Shown piece after piece: positions 14,167 to 30,623 of a stretch of DNA of 64,000 bases. Origin of the DNA: Planctomycetia bacterium (GTDB taxonomy: Bacteria > Planctomycetota > Planctomycetia > Gemmatales > HRBIN36); the NCBI GenBank assembly GCA_016795155.1, contig JAEUIE010000010.1:1-64000 (forward strand), read 5' to 3'. Below the pieces are notes generated by a model, which was not told the origin of the DNA, made no database searches, and was given only the letters and a program-made list of their open reading frames with translations. A program made the translations under genes and the position numbers. Within the stretch, counting starts at the first letter, position 1, and each line of letters starts with the position of its first letter.

Positions 14167-17100
14167 TCACCGCTTCGGCTGATTCCGCTTCTCCGTGAAC
14201 CGCTGATAGGATGAGGAAAGCTCATCGGGTACATCGGTTGCGGGGTCGATGATCTGCTCGGTGGTGCGACGGCCGCTGGTCAGTGTTTTGCCCGGTCCCT
14301 GATCGGATTGCTTGCCAGTACCTCGCACGCGCTGCAGTTGCTGGTTCTGCACCATCTTGAGCGCTTCTTCTTTCGTGAGATTCAGTTCCTTCATCTTGTC
14401 CGCCAGTTTGCGGTCGATGTCGCCTCGCTTGAGTTTCTCTGCCAGGCTATCGAGCGCCAGTTCTCGCTTGCGGGCAGCTTCCTGGTCGACTTCCTGCCCT
14501 TTCTGATCATCCTTGGCCGCAGCAGGCTTGGCATTGAAGTTCGATTTCTCGGGTGCACGGTTATCCTTGGAAACCTGTTCGAGAATCTTGCTCAGATCAC
14601 CTTTGTCCTGCGGATCGGTGCCTTGGCCACTGCCAGGCATGCCTTTATCTTTGCTGGTTTTCTCGCTGGGTTTGTCTCCCTGTTTATCGCCCTGTTTTTC
14701 GCCAGGCTGTTCAGCGGATTTATCACCTTGCTTTTCGTTCATATCTCCCTTGTCGCCCTTTTCGCTGCCTTGCTTATCGCCAGCCTGTTTATCACCCTTC
14801 TCGTTGGCTTGCTTATCTCCCTTTTCACTACCCTGCTTGTCACCCTTTTCGTTCTTGTCCCGAGACTCTTTGTCACCTTTTTCGTTCTTGTCTCCAGACT
14901 GTTTCTCTGATGCTTGTTCGCCGGTCTGCTTATCGCCCTTCTCGTTGGCTTGCTTATCTTCCTTTTCATTACCCTGCTTGTCACTCTTTTCGTTCTTGTC
15001 CCGAGACTCTTTGTCACCTTTCTCGTTCTTGTCACCAGACTGTTTCTCGGACGATTGTTCGCCGGTCTGCTTGTCACCCTTCTCGTTGGCCTGTTTATCG
15101 CCTTTTTCACTGCCTTGCTTGTCACCTTTTTCGTTCTTATCACCAGACTGTTTCTCGGATGATTGTTCGCCACTCTGCTTATCGCCCTTCTCGTTAGCCT
15201 GCTTGTCACCCTTTTCACTGCCTTGCTTCTCGCTGGCTTGCTTGTCACCTTTTTCGTTCTTGTTACCGGATTGCTTATCTCCCTTGTCACCCTGCTTTTC
15301 GTTCATATCGCCCTTATCACCTGACTGTTTGTCACCTTTTTCGCTCTTGTCGCCAGACTGCTTCTCGGATGACTGTTCGCCACTCTGCTTATCGCCCTTC
15401 TCGTTAGCCTGCTTGTCACCCTTTTCACTGCCTTGCTTCTCGCTGGCTTGCTTGTCACCTTTTTCGTTCTTGTTACCGGATTGCTTATCTCCCTTTTCTC
15501 CCTGCTTTTCGTTCGAATCACCTTTATCGCCTGACTGCTTGTCAGACTTATCACCGGACTGCTTGTCACCTTTTTCGTTTTTGTTGCCGGATTGCTTATC
15601 TCCCTTTTCTCCCTGCTTTTCGTTCGAATCACCCTTATCACCTGACTGTTTGTCACCCTTTTCGCCAGTTTGCTTTTCCGACTTCTCGCCTGATTGCTTC
15701 TCGCCCTTCTCGCCAGACTGCTGGTTGCCTTTCTCTCCCGACTGTTTCTCGGATTTCTCACCCTGCTGTTTGTCACCCTTATCACCCTGCTGATCTTCAT
15801 TCTTCTCCTGCTGATTATTCTCCGGCTGCTGCTGTTCTCTTTCCTTCTTCTGCTGTTCGTGCTGCTGCTTCTGTTTATCAGCCTGCTTCTGCTGCTCGTT
15901 GCGTTGTTCCTGGTTGGCTTCACCCTTGAGCTTCAGTCGAATCAACTGCGATACCCCTACCTGGGCCACAGGCTCGGAGGTGTCAGCAGCTTCCACTACC
16001 ATTTCCACGATGGTGCCCGGCTTGAGCTGGATCGGCTTGGCATTTTCTGACTGGTTGTCGTACGTCAGCTTGCTGAGATCAAGCGTTAACAGGAAAGGAA
16101 CCGGCGGCGAGGTAAAGCCATTAGCTTTCTGCAGGTTCTTTTCCATGGGAGCCTTTCCCACGAAGTACAGATCGCGGCCATCCGATGTTTTCAATTTGAA
16201 CGAGACCTGCCCGACAGCTATATCATCATGGGCAATGCCCGAGACAGGCAGCACCGCATTGGCTTCCACTTCAAGCTCGTTCTGATCCTTGGCCAGCGTG
16301 GTGTCCTTGATCTTCTGGATTTCCACGCGCGGCGCCAGGTTGCTGGTCACTTCGAGAGGATACTTGGGAGACAATCCCGTCAAATTCTCCGGACTGACCA
16401 GTGCAAGCTGGTAAAAGAATTTTTGCTTCTTATCGTCCTTACTGACATAGCCGGGAATCAGTCGCAATGGCTCAGCCAGTGCCAGCCGGTTGTCATCCGA
16501 TTTGTTAACCGGCCGAACCAGCTTGATCGTCTGTCTGCGGTTGGCAATGATGCGGCCATCATCTGCCATCTGTTCTTCAATCACTTCGAGTTCGCCGGAA
16601 GCAGCAGGGCGATCTGCGGTAACTTCCAGGTCGACTACGGTATCCTGAATGGCACGAATAGGACCCATGCCCTGAATCGTTGGCCGTCGTTTGGTGTACG
16701 CAGGATAATTCAGCTTCACTTCCAGGTCGCTGACCGATGGTGGCACGCGTGAGACCACCACGAGCTTGAACTTACGAGTCATGCCATCGTTGGCACGGAA
16801 CCAGAATTCAAAACCATCAACAGGGATATCGCTGCTGGAAAGGGCCACGCGCCACGGCTGGGAACTGTCGCCACTCTTATCCTGTCGAAGCGGCTTGACC
16901 ATAGGCAGTCTGTCGCCTGCAGCCTGCGATTCCATCACCACTTCTTCGGGTATCTTGCCGTGGGTCAGCACGCGGAATTCTACCGGCTGGCCTCGTTCCA
17001 CCATTACTTCCCGGATGGGCATGGTGCTGACATCTTCTTCGGGCACCGGTTCCTCTACCGGCTTGAGTACTTCCAAGCGGGTATGGGTGGGGATAATCGT

Positions 17101-17694
17101 CGATTTGAACGGGAACAGCGCCCGCTTGAACAGGCTGCCGATCTGATCGGGCAGTACGAATGCAACGAAAATGATTGCCAGCAGAATCACGCCCAGAATA
17201 ATGCCCGTGCGAATCGGCTTACGGGTGGGGATCGCTTCTTCCATATTGGCAGAATCGAGTTCATGTACGGCACGTCGGCTGAGAGAGTCGCGCACGATGG
17301 GATTGATCTTTTCATTACGCAGATCAAGCCAGTTGATAATGCCATTTTTGCTGCCCGGCGTCGCTTTTTCGATCATGCGGGCCGTGTAATACGGATTGAT
17401 ATGCTGAAGCAGCGGATAGGCAATCTTCCAGCCGATGAAGGCCAGAGCGCCGATACCTGCCACTGCCCACAAAGCTTGCCTGACGCCATCCTTTAAGTGG
17501 AGCCAGTAATCGAGGCCGATAATGATGAGCAGATAAGTGAGCACGCCACCTGCGAGCAGACAGATGGAATAGATGGTGTCTACCGTACGCAGGCGTAGTT
17601 GGGCACGTTCCAGTTCACGTTCCACCAGTTGTGGCCGCTGACTGGCAGGCCGGGCTTTGCTGCGGATGCGAGGTAACTGTGCAGACTTGCTCAT
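14167..17694 (-). CDS. Giant membrane-anchored protein with a long K/D/E/G/Q/S repeat tract
   Basis: The start is the ATG at 17692-17694 with GAGGTGG just before it, giving 1175 residues. The N-terminus has basic residues and coiled helix, then three membrane segments: SICLLAGGVLTYLLIIIGLDYWL, LWAVAGIGALAFIGWKIAYPLL and TGIILGVILLAIIFVAFVLP near residue 175. A beta-rich region to about residue 610 resembles DUF4175-type planctomycete proteins. Then follow a Gln-rich coil and about 370 residues of EKGDKQSGEK-type repeats, and an Ala/Lys/Leu-rich helical C-terminus (LALDSLAEKLKRGDIDRKLADKMKELNLTKEEA). The repeats should be disordered and highly charged. Length and repeat number probably vary between strains. 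No enzymatic motif was seen. Confidence 0.8.
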   Translation of the reverse strand: MSKSAQLPRIRSKARPASQRPQLVERELERAQLRLRTVDTIYSICLLAGGVLTYLLIIIGLDYWLHLKDGVRQALWAVAGIGALAFIGWKIAYPLLQHINPYYTARMIEKATPGSKNGIINWLDLRNEKINPIVRDSLSRRAVHELDSANMEEAIPTRKPIRTGIILGVILLAIIFVAFVLPDQIGSLFKRALFPFKSTIIPTHTRLEVLKPVEEPVPEEDVSTMPIREVMVERGQPVEFRVLTHGKIPEEVVMESQAAGDRLPMVKPLRQDKSGDSSQPWRVALSSSDIPVDGFEFWFRANDGMTRKFKLVVVSRVPPSVSDLEVKLNYPAYTKRRPTIQGMGPIRAIQDTVVDLEVTADRPAASGELEVIEEQMADDGRIIANRRQTIKLVRPVNKSDDNRLALAEPLRLIPGYVSKDDKKQKFFYQLALVSPENLTGLSPKYPLEVTSNLAPRVEIQKIKDTTLAKDQNELEVEANAVLPVSGIAHDDIAVGQVSFKLKTSDGRDLYFVGKAPMEKNLQKANGFTSPPVPFLLTLDLSKLTYDNQSENAKPIQLKPGTIVEMVVEAADTSEPVAQVGVSQLIRLKLKGEANQEQRNEQQKQADKQKQQHEQQKKEREQQQPENNQQEKNEDQQGDKGDKQQGEKSEKQSGEKGNQQSGEKGEKQSGEKSEKQTGEKGDKQSGDKGDSNEKQGEKGDKQSGNKNEKGDKQSGDKSDKQSGDKGDSNEKQGEKGDKQSGNKNEKGDKQASEKQGSEKGDKQANEKGDKQSGEQSSEKQSGDKSEKGDKQSGDKGDMNEKQGDKGDKQSGNKNEKGDKQASEKQGSEKGDKQANEKGDKQSGEQSSEKQSGDKNEKGDKQGSEKGDKQANEKGDKQTGEQSSEKQSGDKNEKGDKESRDKNEKSDKQGNEKEDKQANEKGDKQTGEQASEKQSGDKNEKGDKESRDKNEKGDKQGSEKGDKQANEKGDKQAGDKQGSEKGDKGDMNEKQGDKSAEQPGEKQGDKQGDKPSEKTSKDKGMPGSGQGTDPQDKGDLSKILEQVSKDNRAPEKSNFNAKPAAAKDDQKGQEVDQEAARKRELALDSLAEKLKRGDIDRKLADKMKELNLTKEEALKMVQNQQLQRVRGTGKQSDQGPGKTLTSGRRTTEQIIDPATDVPDELSSSYQRFTEKRNQPKR
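14700..15785. repeat. Coding minisatellite inside the giant membrane protein gene
   Basis: Short units of 12-33 bases encoding GDKQ/SEKQ/NEKGDKQ are nested in longer ones. A block of about 120 bases from about 15168 recurs nearly identically 210 bases further on, at about 15378. Another long block around 14921 recurs near 15062. All units keep the reading frame, so variation would change length without breaking the gene. Confidence 0.85.
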
Positions 17695-17929
17695 AACCAC
17701 CTCAAACGACGGGCATATGGATTATACCTGAATGCTGACGTTTCGTACCGCAAATAGTGTCTTTCATCCCTCTTTTATTGGCTCATTTCACTGCAATGGA
17801 TGTTCATCCGTACAGAATAGAAGTGAAAAACCGGGGAGAGCCTCCCTCATTATTAGTGTAGCTGGTTACCCTTGTGGCATGGCATCATAGAATCTAATCA
17901 CACCTTTTTTCTGCGAAAGGACTGTTTGC

Positions 17930-21014: not shown

Positions 21015-22553
21015 TCAATGGCGCAAGGATGGCACTTCTGGATAGAGCACAATCCTCACTTCCTCCACGCCAGTCAGCCCGCAATAGAGAACCTTTGCCA
21101 ACTGGTAGAAAATCGTATCCAGGCAGACACCTTGCGGGTAACCACCAGCACCGGTGCCGAGCAGGGGTATTGCCAGCGTAGTAATGCGGTAAGTATCAGC
21201 CTGCATGATGATGTGATGAATCAATTCCGTAATCAGGTCTTTACTGAGTTCCCGGTCACTCAAGCCACTGCGATCAAGCACTGCAGCATGGAAGACCAGG
21301 CGGGCGGGAAGTTTGCCTGCGGTAGAGACAGCCACCCGCCCGTGACGAATCGGGCTGAGCCGATCCACCATCAGTGCATACTCCGGTCCAGCGGCGCGCT
21401 TGATGGCTGCTGACGTGCCACCACCCATTGTCAGGTAATTATCATCGGAACTGACGATGGCCCCTACCTGCTGGTCGATGATATTTCCCGAAACCACCAT
21501 CAATGCTTTGCCATCGGGAAATTCGTAGCGATCTGGAGTTTGTGCCAGGCTGGCATGATCGCCACTCAGGTAAAACGCCCGGCGAGCCTGGTATGCCTTC
21601 ATGATCTCCTGCAGCTCAGGTTCATCCTGTTCCCAGGCATTCTGAGTGTTGGATGACTGAAGCTGTGACAGCAGATCCTTAAACGATGCAAATCGCTGAT
21701 CAGGCGACTTGGCCATGCACCGCTCGATGATTTCATTCATCCGTGCCGAGATTTTCGGATTCAGCGACCGGGGCGAAACGAGCGGATCAAACTTGTGCTT
21801 GCACAGAATGGAGAAGACCGATTCACCATCAAAAGGAAACTTGCCGGTGAGTGCTTTGTAAAGGGTGGCGCCGAAGCTGTAGATATCGGCACGGGTATCG
21901 ACGTGTTTAGGATTCTCCGCCTGCTCCGGCGCCATGAAGTGGGGCGTGCCCATGATGTCACCCGTCATGGACAGGTGGCTGAGATCCATGGTGCCTCGAG
22001 CCAGTCCAAAGTCTGCCACCCGTGCGTTGCCCAGCCGGTCGATCAGAATGTTAGCCGGTTTCAGATCACGATGGATGATGCCCAGGTCAGCCGCTTCCGC
22101 CATGCCTTGCGCCACCTGACGCATGATGGGCAGCAGTTCCGATTCCTCCATGCCGCCGGGTTTTTCTTTAATTCTTTTGGAGAGATCAGTTCCCTCGATC
22201 CAATCCATGACCAGCATGGGGGAACCATCGGCCAGGACATCGAAATCATGAATAGCAACCACATGGGCAGATTTGATTTTGGCCAGCATGCGGGCTTCGC
22301 GGAGAAAGCGTTCTGCGGAGTGCCTGCCCTGCGTGATTTTGATGGCTACCAGCTTATCCAGATGCCGATGCCTGGCTTGGTAGACCACACCCATGCCGCC
22401 GCGTGCCACCAGTTCAATGACTTCATACCGCTGGTGATTGGGCATATCGACAACGGTGAAAGCCGTGTTCTGCTGATCGAGAGTATCCCCTTGAGAAACC
22501 GTCTGTGGTTCTGCAGCAGATGCCGGTATTTTGTTGGCGTTCTCAGGGTGCAT
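21015..22553 (-). CDS. Ser/Thr protein kinase fused to a macro domain
   Basis: The protein has 512 residues and no membrane segment. The kinase domain spans about residues 42-300: the glycine loop ARGGMGVVY (51-58), the catalytic Lys72 in VAIKIT, HRDLKPANI (161-169), DFGLA (181-185) and APEQ (208-211). All key residues are present, so it should be active. A short linker leads to a macro domain, about residues 335-512. It has VVSGNIIDQQVGAIVSSDDNYLTMGGGTSAAI, the ADP-ribose-binding signature, and IPLLGTGAGGYP, the second phosphate loop. It would tie phosphorylation to ADP-ribose or to a related nucleotide signal. I know of no standard protein with this order. It could instead remove ADP-ribose from targets. 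Confidence 0.88.
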   Translation of the reverse strand: MHPENANKIPASAAEPQTVSQGDTLDQQNTAFTVVDMPNHQRYEVIELVARGGMGVVYQARHRHLDKLVAIKITQGRHSAERFLREARMLAKIKSAHVVAIHDFDVLADGSPMLVMDWIEGTDLSKRIKEKPGGMEESELLPIMRQVAQGMAEAADLGIIHRDLKPANILIDRLGNARVADFGLARGTMDLSHLSMTGDIMGTPHFMAPEQAENPKHVDTRADIYSFGATLYKALTGKFPFDGESVFSILCKHKFDPLVSPRSLNPKISARMNEIIERCMAKSPDQRFASFKDLLSQLQSSNTQNAWEQDEPELQEIMKAYQARRAFYLSGDHASLAQTPDRYEFPDGKALMVVSGNIIDQQVGAIVSSDDNYLTMGGGTSAAIKRAAGPEYALMVDRLSPIRHGRVAVSTAGKLPARLVFHAAVLDRSGLSDRELSKDLITELIHHIIMQADTYRITTLAIPLLGTGAGGYPQGVCLDTIFYQLAKVLYCGLTGVEEVRIVLYPEVPSLRH

Positions 22554-26801: not shown

Positions 26802-29048
26802 TTACAACTGCGTTCTTTCCATCGTGGCGTTTGCTTCACTTCTCGCTGTCGTCATAGCAGCTTCATGCAACTCGGCAGTGAATACTTGCGTTTCCTGCTG
26901 TCGTTGATCCTGTCTATTTTTCCACCAGATGGCTGCGTCGCTTTCTGTCCATGTGCCTTGGAACGCGCACTGGTTCAGCTCTTTCAGTACATCGTTGGCG
27001 TTGGCTGGTCTATCAGCCTGCGACTTGGCCAGGCAGCGTAGGATCAGTGATTCTACTTGTGGGGAAATGGATTTGCTGGATCGTTCTGACGGCGTTTCTG
27101 GCTTTTCCCGTACATGCTTCATGCAGATTTCGACAACCGATTGGCCGGAGAATACGGTGCTGCCTGTCAGCAGAAAGTACATCACCGCACCCAGTGCATA
27201 GACATCCGAGCGGACATCTACCTGGTCAGGCTGGGAAATGCCTTCCGGCGAAAGATAATGAGGCGTGCCGGTTACCGCATTGGTTGAGGTCAGGTGAGCC
27301 TGTTCGCTATCGGATACGGTTTTCACCAGTCCGAAGTCAAGCACTTTGACAAAGTCCTGTACGCCACCCCGCTGCGTCAGGAAGATGTTTGCTGGTTTGA
27401 TGTCGCGATGCACCAGCCCGGCAGCGTGTGCTTCACCCAATGAGCCACATACCTGCCGCAGAATGTATACCAAGCGGGCTTCGGGCAGGGGACCATGTCG
27501 CGTCACCAGGTCGTCGAGGTTGATGCCTTCGAGATACTCCATGGCATAGTAGAAGATGCCTTCGGGTGTGCGGCCATAATCGAAGATGGAAACCGTATTG
27601 GGATGGGTGAGTGTCGCAGTGATCTGCACTTCACGCTCGAAGCGGGCAATGCTGCTTCCTGAGATTTTGTCGACATCGAGGAGTTTCAGCGCCGTAGGCC
27701 GACGGAGCATGGCGTGTCGGGCTTTGTAGACTGTGCCCATGCCGCCTGAACCCAGTTTTTCTTCCAGGGCATACTGGCCCAGTTGTTTAGCCTGGAGCAC
27801 TGCGGCCTGCAACATTTTCTGCTGCTTGGCCATCAGGAACATGGCAACATAAATCGCCACCGAGGCAATACCCAGCAGAATCATCAAGCCCCAGAACGCC
27901 CGGCGAAGGATATAGACCGGAGCGTAGGCTTCTTCCACATCTATTTCCGTGCAGACACCAAAATCATAATCGGTAAGCCAGGTCCAGGCGCCCACCACTG
28001 GCACGCCTCGATAATCGCGGTATTCCCACGGCTCGCATCCCGATTTTCCCTGGATGGCATCAGCTACATTGAAGGGCAATGGTTGATCGTTGCGAAGTTG
28101 CTCCGGCCTTTCCCCTTTCATCATGTTCACGCCAGGGTTGCGTAACTTCAACGTCAGAATGGATTGCGATTCAGGCAGGTCAGCGAGCAGACCGATGCGC
28201 TTCAGATCGTTGTCAAATCGGCTGTTGGAAAGGAGCAGGCCGTCTTTGTCGAAGGCATAGGTCTCGCCCGTCTGCCCAGCTTGAGCCACACGCAGAATCT
28301 GGGAAAACTGCATGTCAGGGCGAATACGCAAACCGAGAACGGCATGAACCTTTCCATCCGATTGCTTGAGCGGGGCTGCAGCAAACATGGTTGGCAGATT
28401 GGCACGGTACTCGCCTGATTCGTCCTGCAGCAACAGCGGACTTCGGTACGGCTTGGATACTGAGGGTCCAGATTGGAACACGCGATCAAAAAACTCTTTG
28501 CGATAGCCACCCATTTGCTTGCCTACCGGGGCATCCTGTTCAGCAGCGATGGTGACACCATTCTCTGCGACGATGAAATAACCCATGTAACCCAGCGATG
28601 AGAGGATGGGCTTCAAACGAGTTCTGATTTCTGTTTGGGTTTTGGAGTAAATCAGGGACCGTTCACCCTCCACACCTCCGGTATTACTCTGCAGGAGTTG
28701 AGCGATCATGTCCTGTAGTTTTTCATCCCGTGCCACCAGTTCTGCTGTCTGTCCCTGATCTTCCATCCATATTTTCAGTGCTTCCACATCTGCATTGAGG
28801 ATGGTGTTCAACTCGGCTTCACGTTGCCGGCTCATGGCTTTGTCGACCGACTGCTCCACGAGTAGACCCGTGACACCAAGGATGATGGCAGCCAGGATCG
28901 GCCATATCCAGAGTTGTTGCCGGAGGAATTTCCCCGTGGCTTGAACACTCGAACGGCTGGCCAGTCGGCGCATCGCCGGGCCTACCGCTGAGAGTGCAGT
29001 GAAGCTGGCACGAGCAAGAGATTTGGAGATGGAATTCTTCGCTGTCAC
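26802..29048 (-). CDS. Transmembrane Ser/Thr kinase with an extracytoplasmic Cache-type sensor
   Basis: The protein has 748 residues from a GTG start. The domain order is a basic N-terminus, membrane helix 1 (about 45-65), an extracytoplasmic sensor (about 66-385) and membrane helix 2 (about 386-407). The sensor contains LGYMGYFIVAENGVTIAAEQD and AGQTGETYAFDKDGLLL, typical of double-Cache domains. A cytoplasmic kinase follows with GSGGMGTVYKA (433-443), Lys455, HRDIKPANIF (547) and LDFGL. All catalytic residues are present. It should sense a periplasmic small ligand and phosphorylate cytoplasmic proteins. It stands next to the DciA-like gene, but in this reading order the kinase comes after it and need not share its role. 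Confidence 0.9.
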   Translation of the reverse strand: MTAKNSISKSLARASFTALSAVGPAMRRLASRSSVQATGKFLRQQLWIWPILAAIILGVTGLLVEQSVDKAMSRQREAELNTILNADVEALKIWMEDQGQTAELVARDEKLQDMIAQLLQSNTGGVEGERSLIYSKTQTEIRTRLKPILSSLGYMGYFIVAENGVTIAAEQDAPVGKQMGGYRKEFFDRVFQSGPSVSKPYRSPLLLQDESGEYRANLPTMFAAAPLKQSDGKVHAVLGLRIRPDMQFSQILRVAQAGQTGETYAFDKDGLLLSNSRFDNDLKRIGLLADLPESQSILTLKLRNPGVNMMKGERPEQLRNDQPLPFNVADAIQGKSGCEPWEYRDYRGVPVVGAWTWLTDYDFGVCTEIDVEEAYAPVYILRRAFWGLMILLGIASVAIYVAMFLMAKQQKMLQAAVLQAKQLGQYALEEKLGSGGMGTVYKARHAMLRRPTALKLLDVDKISGSSIARFEREVQITATLTHPNTVSIFDYGRTPEGIFYYAMEYLEGINLDDLVTRHGPLPEARLVYILRQVCGSLGEAHAAGLVHRDIKPANIFLTQRGGVQDFVKVLDFGLVKTVSDSEQAHLTSTNAVTGTPHYLSPEGISQPDQVDVRSDVYALGAVMYFLLTGSTVFSGQSVVEICMKHVREKPETPSERSSKSISPQVESLILRCLAKSQADRPANANDVLKELNQCAFQGTWTESDAAIWWKNRQDQRQQETQVFTAELHEAAMTTARSEANATMERTQL

Positions 29049-29501: not shown

Positions 29502-30623
29502 TTACTTTCCTTCCCCACGTGTCAACGGTACCACGATGTAGCTGTAATTGCCTGGAGCGGTAAACAGGGCTACTGTGTTGTTCTCGACGAGTTCCAGAGT
29601 GATTTCGGTGTCTGGTTCCAGCACGCGGAGCATATCCAGCACCAGCTTTGGATCGAACGTGGTGCTCATCGATTTGCTGTCATATGCCACCGGCAATTGG
29701 ATTTTGGCCCGGCCTTTTTCTGCAACACGGGCCTGCAACGTCAGTGTTCCTTTCGCAAAGCTGAAATCAACGCCGCGAGTATCTTCATCCGTAAGAATCG
29801 CAGCCTGCCTGACGACGGAACTAAGCGGACCAACCATCAGCGGTATTTTGACTGCTGTTTTCTTGGGAAACACTTCGCGGTACGTTGGGTAACGCCCTTC
29901 CACCAGTCGGCCATAGATTTCCGATTTGCCTACTTTGAAGAGCACATCGTTGGGGCTGAAGCGCACCAGCACGGGGTCTTCAGTATCAGCCAGGTTCTTA
30001 TCGAGCAATTGCATCACTTTGGTCGGCACCACTGGAGTCTGGTTGCCGGTGGTATGTCCGCCATGTGCTTCGCCGTTGCCATCCACCACGGCCATGCGTT
30101 TGCCATCAGTCGCTACCAGGCGAACCTTGTCTTCGTTCAGTTCCCACATCACACCGGTAAGGGCATAGCGGGCCGATTCGGTAGCTGCTGCAAAAATGGT
30201 CCGGTGAATCATTTCCTTAAGTTGTTTCGACGGGATACTGTGATATTTGTCTCCCTCAAAACCCGCTACCGTGGGGTACTGATCTGCATCTTCGCCAGGC
30301 AGTTCGAATTCACTGTACTGGCCGCGAAGACAAACGCCTTCACCATCGCCTTCTATTTTCAGTTCCTGATCACTGCATTCGCGCAGGATGGAATTCACCC
30401 GACCTGTTGGAAGGAGGATATCGCCCGGTTCCTCAACCTGCACGCCCCGCACTTCCATGCTGATGCCTACCGATTCCAGATCCGTAGCTTTGAGCGTTGC
30501 ATGTTTCTTGGTGACACTCAATTTGACGTTCTGCAGGATCACCTTGGGCGTGCGTGCCGGAACGACACTGCTGGTGAGTTGAAATGCCTGGGCCAGAGCT
30601 TCCCGGTCAAAGACCGCTTTCAT
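29502..30623 (-). CDS. dnaN: DNA polymerase III beta subunit (sliding clamp)
   Basis: The protein has 373 residues with AGAGG eight bases before the ATG. It is the ring-shaped clamp that holds the replicative polymerase on DNA. Typical blocks are MKAVFDREALAQAFQLTSSVVPARTPKVILQNVKL, VEEPGDILLPTGRVNSILRE, YALTGVMWELNEDKVRLVATDGKRMAVV, and the end ALFTAPGNYSYIVVPLTRG. This places a DciA-like gene directly downstream. dnaA is not in the window. Confidence 0.96.
   Translation of the reverse strand: MKAVFDREALAQAFQLTSSVVPARTPKVILQNVKLSVTKKHATLKATDLESVGISMEVRGVQVEEPGDILLPTGRVNSILRECSDQELKIEGDGEGVCLRGQYSEFELPGEDADQYPTVAGFEGDKYHSIPSKQLKEMIHRTIFAAATESARYALTGVMWELNEDKVRLVATDGKRMAVVDGNGEAHGGHTTGNQTPVVPTKVMQLLDKNLADTEDPVLVRFSPNDVLFKVGKSEIYGRLVEGRYPTYREVFPKKTAVKIPLMVGPLSSVVRQAAILTDEDTRGVDFSFAKGTLTLQARVAEKGRAKIQLPVAYDSKSMSTTFDPKLVLDMLRVLEPDTEITLELVENNTVALFTAPGNYSYIVVPLTRGEGK

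Follow-up and report, generated by a model that had tools for sequence, protein, structure and literature searches.

In the window, i.e., the whole 64,000-nucleotide stretch of planctomycete DNA that was analyzed, one gene joins a Hanks-type serine/threonine kinase to a macro domain, and it raises two questions: whether the fusion is genuine, and what a macro domain does for a kinase. The gene encodes a protein of 512 residues on the minus strand at 21015–22553, from the ATG at 22553 to the stop codon at 21015, as defined by the open reading frame and its translation, Pfam, and full-length homologues. The first-pass annotation had given these coordinates exactly and had named no strand; all features of the gene given below lie on the minus strand. 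A one-off or artefactual fusion and a chance reading frame were ruled out by the full-length homologues, which in the family alignment were 43–50% identical over both domains (32–34% for the two most distant).

Domain composition of the protein

Residues 1–40 (22434–22553) form an N-terminal tail that is predicted to be disordered (pLDDT below 50 at residues 1–34) and is unconserved in the family alignment. The tail is followed by a PknB/StkP-like kinase domain (residues 41–300, 21654–22433), a linker (residues 301–339, 21537–21653), and the macro domain (residues 340–505, 21039–21536). The linker contains a conserved segment at residues 312–329, which is helical in the models, and carries the pattern SPW..DD..L..YL..Y.ARR..YL in relatives; the shorter form SPW..DD..L..Y..RR..Y was found between the kinase and macro domains in most family members. 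The AlphaFold model of the full protein had a mean pLDDT of 80 and a pTM of 0.79. Residues 1–34 and 184–200 (the activation-loop region) were poorly ordered in this model, and the macro domain was soluble and linked to the kinase by a helix.

The kinase domain was assigned from Pfam PF00069, PDB sequence matches, fold, and motifs. Pfam Pkinase matched residues 43–294 with an E-value of 1e-45, far above the cut-off. The catalytic motifs were complete (G-loop at 52–55, VAIK with K72, E86, HRDLKPAN at 161–168, DFG at 181–183, and APE at 208–210) and were invariant or nearly so over the 12 rows of the family alignment, except that the G-loop of two rows is degenerate. The fold matched that of M. 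tuberculosis PknB (Z 31.5 over 252 residues, rmsd 2.3). By domain, motifs, and fold, the protein is a Hanks-type Ser/Thr kinase, which bears out its earlier description as a complete kinase with all catalytic motifs, and it is predicted to be catalytically active. StkP and PknB were the best PDB sequence matches, and the window protein shares the fold and all catalytic motifs with Hanks kinases of this type. It differs from the PASTA kinases among them in having a macro domain after the helical linker and no PASTA domain (no PASTA match in Pfam, and an NCBIfam PknB_PASTA score of 267 bits, below the cut-off of 450).

Pfam Macro (PF01661) matched residues 371–477 with an E-value of 1.5e-16, also far above the cut-off. 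Modelled alone, the macro part reached a mean pLDDT of 89 and a pTM of 0.87, and its best fold match was macroH2A with ADP-ribose (Z 22.8 over 170 residues, rmsd 2.6), followed by OiMacroD with ADPr (Z 21.7) and PARP14 macro 1 (Z 20.8). Structure prediction thus supports the macro fold and, by this fold and PF01661, the C-terminal part is a member of the macro superfamily. The first-pass annotation had called the macro domain complete, which holds for the fold (structure prediction, PDB matches, and Pfam); the residues of the ligand site are atypical, with SSDD in place of NAAN and Ser at the catalytic Asp of MacroD.

The macro part resembles two groups of characterized domains. It shares the fold and the phosphate loop with the reader macrodomains macroH2A1.1 and PARP14 macro 1, and PARP14 was its best PDB sequence match; these readers have a NAAN-type motif, whereas the window protein has SSDD in a bacterial domain fused to a kinase. 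With the MacroD-type hydrolases (OiMacroD, YmdB, and MacroD1/2) and TTHA0132, it shares the fold and the GGG and GTG loops. It differs from the hydrolases in having Ser at the catalytic Asp and Asp at the ribose-contacting Asn, and its family has no conserved catalytic-loop Gly. TTHA0132 is the closest solved bacterial relative of the macro part by sequence, with 36% identity over the structural alignment.

The ligand site across the family

Residues of the binding site were counted in an alignment of 21 fused macro domains and 72 other macro domains. Phosphate-binding loop 2, GTG (residues 466–468, 21150–21158), was conserved, and its two glycines (G466 and G468, GxG) and G379 were invariant in 21/21 fused macro domains. 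The ribose and catalytic region was systematically altered. NAAN was the commonest form in the other macro domains, whereas the fused ones mostly had SSDD, which lies at residues 368–371 (21441–21452) in the window protein. The first position was Ser in 19 of the 21 fused domains and Asn in 66 of the 72 others; the fourth was Asp in 19 fused domains and Asn in none, as against Asn in 65 of the others. This fourth residue, D371, corresponds in the alignment to the Asn that binds ribose (MacroD2 Asn92, OiMacroD N30), the residue match being counted from the motif. At the position of MacroD2 D102/OiMacroD D40, the window protein has S381; the fused domains had Ala (12) or Ser (9) and never Asp, which was present in 23/72 others. 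Loop 1, GGG (residues 377–379, 21417–21425), is present in the window protein and variable in the family, being remodelled with inserts in two members. Gly occupies its position equivalent to OiMacroD G37 in the window protein (G378) and in 8/21 fused domains in all, compared to 48/72 others, with Met, Ala, Ser, Thr, and Glu among the replacements. The adenine-site Asp was absent from the window protein (N357) and from five other fusions.

Mutants of OiMacroD allow these replacements to be read. The ribose-binding roles of MacroD2 Asn92 and OiMacroD N30 were described in PMC7050489 and PMC5413906. According to the same sources, N30A mainly raised Km and kept most of kcat, G37V lowered kcat while ADPr binding was unaffected, and D40A lowered kcat, and none of the three abolished activity. 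PMC5413906 further reports that the catalytic Asp is also missing in TTHA0132 and Af1521; this Asp is not universal among MacroD-type members. Microbial PARGs offer a precedent for an Asp at the position that contacts the ribose (PMC7050489).

As the phosphate grip is kept and the catalytic positions drift, a reader fits better than an enzyme. The closeness of the fold to ADP-ribose-bound structures also argues for a reader. In our judgement, there is about an even chance that the macro domain reads an ADP-ribose derivative and thereby tunes the kinase, rather than acting as an eraser. Given N357 at the adenine-site Asp and Asp at the N30 position, the affinity of the window protein for ADP-ribose could be weak.

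The macro fold may instead serve another ligand (NAD, ADP, RNA, or another nucleotide) or act as a protein platform that recruits substrates, with ADP-ribose uninvolved. The systematic replacement of the ribose-contacting Asn, the missing adenine-site Asp in six fusions including the window protein, and the remodelled loop 1 with its inserts are consistent with this alternative. We nevertheless consider it unlikely, given the well-kept phosphate loop and fold, the ADP-ribose bound in the closest structures, and the PARG precedent for the Asp.

It is also doubtful that the macro domain acts as an eraser, with ADP-ribosylhydrolase or OAADPr deacylase activity, and that the kinase regulates it or merely shares its targets. 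The window protein retains the full GGG and GTG loops, and with its GGG kept, hydrolysis could occur there; the lack of the catalytic Asp in TTHA0132 and the remaining activity of OiMacroD mutants at that Asp or at N30 (PMC5413906) point the same way. No ADP-ribosylglycohydrolase gene (PF03747) and no second macro-domain gene were found in the window's genome, which would make the fusion the only candidate eraser of that genome. However, a conserved enzymatic role should retain the catalytic-loop positions, and these drift in the family, as the G37 position illustrates. Processing of Appr-1-p with Tpt1 was rejected, as no PF01885 gene was found in the window's genome.

Distribution and origin of the fusion

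A search for the kinase plus macro architecture showed that the fusion recurs in planctomycetes. Of the 398 genomes sampled from the class, at least 13 gave the full kinase–linker–macro match at E ≤ 1e-60, a lower bound since scoring was limited to a few candidates in each genome; four further matches among the 398 genomes covered the kinase only. In a scan of named genomes, planctomycetes such as Aquisphaera insulae and the cyanobacterium Leptolyngbya sp. Heron Island J proved to have the kinase–linker–macro architecture. Two more cases came from the cyanobacterial class sample, a complete fusion (G856) and another cut off by the end of its contig (G963), so that three cyanobacterial genomes have the fusion in all. 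In G547 (loci L112 and L163), a planctomycete from a second class, the fusion involves a different kinase. In two planctomycete fusions (L031 and L060, the latter being the same protein as L047), a SpoIIE-type phosphatase domain follows the macro domain.

The first-pass annotation had judged the domain order not to be a standard architecture. This judgement needs qualifying, since the family recurs in the class, in another planctomycete class, and in cyanobacteria; no paper describing a kinase–macro fusion was found. The main text of a planctomycete kinase survey covering 307 architectures does not mention the macro domain (PMC11032199), and studies of conflict systems in multicellular bacteria list macro domains and kinases as modules of such systems without mentioning their fusion. 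The kinase class is known, and its macro sensor architecture is apparently undescribed; the proteins would form an apparently undescribed, conserved family of Hanks kinases whose C-terminal macro domain is of the reader type.

A tree of 104 macro domains placed 20 of the 21 fused ones in one clade (96 SH-aLRT). In a careful tree search without the four motif columns, support for the kinase–macro clade was 100/97. Removal of the motif columns also left a split (90/98) between 32 signalling macro domains, from kinase, cyanobacterial (AAA_35/GUN4/TPR or other), and CHAT proteins, and the 72 others. The persistence of these clades rules out that the signalling grouping is an artefact of the motif itself. 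On the kinase side, the main family also formed one clade (99/98), from which the cyanobacterial fragment L128, a member of the macro clade, is absent because it has no complete kinase. The main family is thus of common descent on both sides of the linker and, since its macro domains and its kinase domains each form one clade, the simplest reading of the trees is a single fusion that would then have spread, including between planctomycetes and cyanobacteria. The 21st fusion, L112, fell outside the main family on the kinase side, on a very long branch and with few non-fused kinases sampled; this placement makes it likely that a fusion arose a second time, independently.

The nearest macro domains elsewhere were C-terminal modules of cyanobacterial AAA_35/GUN4/TPR proteins, and a CHAT-protease fusion branched next. 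Five cyanobacterial proteins that end in an SSDD-type macro domain (L054, 8384–10507; L057, 8009–10501; L061, 6683–10537; L056, 9053–10534; and L130) formed one clade of the macro tree; AAA_35 was present in three of them, of which two have GUN4 and one has TPR. The AAA_35/GUN4/TPR proteins (L054, L057, and L061) resemble the kinase fusions in their SSDD-type motif, the C-terminal position of the macro domain, and the shared grouping apart from the 72 mostly NAAN-type domains, and they differ in that their output is the AAA_35 module and not a kinase. Planctomycete proteins that join a macro domain to CHAT, a caspase-like protease domain, were found in L099 (412–2022, minus strand), L113 (445–2004, minus strand), L108, and L116. 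In these proteins, the macro domain is N-terminal, with NSEN or SSEN as the motif and GVR instead of GTG. The macro domains of L099 and L113 also group apart from the 72, but they are coupled to the CHAT protease as output. By eye, four further cyanobacterial proteins (L134, L135, L137, and L126) seem to carry von Willebrand A domains and, after these, a macro domain in which NSTD, NSSD, or NSTN stands in place of NAAN.

The C-terminal position of the related SSDD macro domains in the multidomain AAA_35, GUN4, and TPR proteins is in line with the proposed reader role, as are the CHAT-protease fusions on the next branch and the SpoIIE-type phosphatase domain in two fusions. We tentatively suggest, as a possibility somewhat short of even, that SSDD-type reader macros are one dedicated lineage within a widespread and undescribed set of NAD/ADP-ribose sensors with several outputs, of which the window protein would be the kinase version. 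The outputs of this class would comprise a Ser/Thr kinase, a kinase plus SpoIIE phosphatase, an AAA_35/GUN4 module, and, more distantly, a CHAT protease.

Signalling model and gene context

Under the reader interpretation, the protein would be a cytosolic Hanks-type Ser/Thr kinase with the C-terminal macro domain as a built-in reader. Candidate ligands are free ADP-ribose, O-acetyl-ADP-ribose, a related NAD breakdown product, or an ADP-ribosylated protein. Binding in the macro cleft would be signalled via the conserved helical linker and would alter the activity or substrate choice of the kinase. A kinase responding to ADP-ribosylation or NAD-derived signals had been suggested from the outset. 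Both domains proved real and this remains the best reading of the anatomy, from which we infer the response itself, i.e., ADP-ribose or a relative as the ligand, reading and not hydrolysis, and regulation of the kinase by binding. The window's genome contains two sirtuin genes and one TIR gene, the products of which may generate ADP-ribose signals; next to the fusions themselves, no gene for an ADP-ribosyltransferase or a sirtuin and no NAD gene was observed.

Planctomycetes have many Hanks kinases, the signals of which are known for a minority at most. An ADP-ribose reader built into the kinase would provide one conserved family with a defined chemical input and would link NAD metabolism directly to Ser/Thr phosphorylation in bacteria. 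The recurrence of the fusion with its unusual pocket suggests a not-yet-described conversion of an NAD-derived signal into protein phosphorylation, and the SSDD-type macro domain is a simple, testable marker for finding related sensors.

A methyltransferase gene lies upstream of the fusion gene (137 bp gap) and a ThuA-like gene downstream, both on the same strand; these two neighbours, identified by Pfam, were the ones considered in a comparison with DarT-DarG. Neighbours were common only to close relatives, and no operon partner was conserved across the family. In one branch, the fusion gene adjoins a Sigma70_ECF gene, which begins 4 bp past the stop codon of the fusion in L161 and L059 and overlaps the fusion end in L053 and, by ORF coordinates, in L055 (where the gene was assigned by similarity only). 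An ECF gene is also located approximately 490 bp upstream of the fusion in L156, and L051 has a possible sigma-like upstream gene with no Pfam match. A gene resembling that of a single-stranded DNA-binding protein was noted by eye just downstream of the ECF sigma gene in L053, L055, L059, and L161.

For PknS-EcfK, it is established that the Hanks kinase phosphorylates the ECF sigma factor directly, PknT-EcfP is a further precedent, and several planctomycete ECF groups (ECF59/61/62/217) are predicted to be regulated by kinases likewise. The ECF-adjacent branch resembles these pathways in having the sigma gene directly 3′ of the kinase gene, and because of this arrangement the sigma factor is a plausible kinase substrate in that branch. 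The fusions differ in having a macro domain as the sensor, and the window has no adjacent sigma gene (32 Sigma70_ECF matches in its genome, none beside the fusion).

The first-pass annotation had also raised stress or anti-phage defence as a possible setting. As a defence kinase, the fusion would sense a change in NAD or ADP-ribose on infection and elicit an abortive response. The PADLOC kinase models PD-T4-6 and MAD6 matched strongly and the CHAT–macro relatives carry a caspase-like protease domain, but this role is very improbable: the PADLOC matches covered the kinase domain only, as expected for any Hanks kinase, so the likeness to the PD-T4-6 and MADS kinases involved neither the whole protein nor a defence context, the neighbourhoods were unconserved between lineages with no defence genes in the annotated parts, and plasmids gave no match at E ≤ 1e-60. 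A phage origin was rejected as well, with only distant macro matches in phages and no PHROG for the macro part.

A scan for promoters and terminators around the gene gave nothing above the shuffled background. Elsewhere in the window, a second Hanks kinase gene (26802–29048, minus strand) shows, in its N-terminal part, a weak match to dCache_1 that stays below the threshold, and it adjoins a sliding-clamp-like gene at 29502–30623. An ORF of 1177 aa at 14167–17700 on the minus strand contains a long, highly repetitive low-complexity region of the GDKQSGEKG type.
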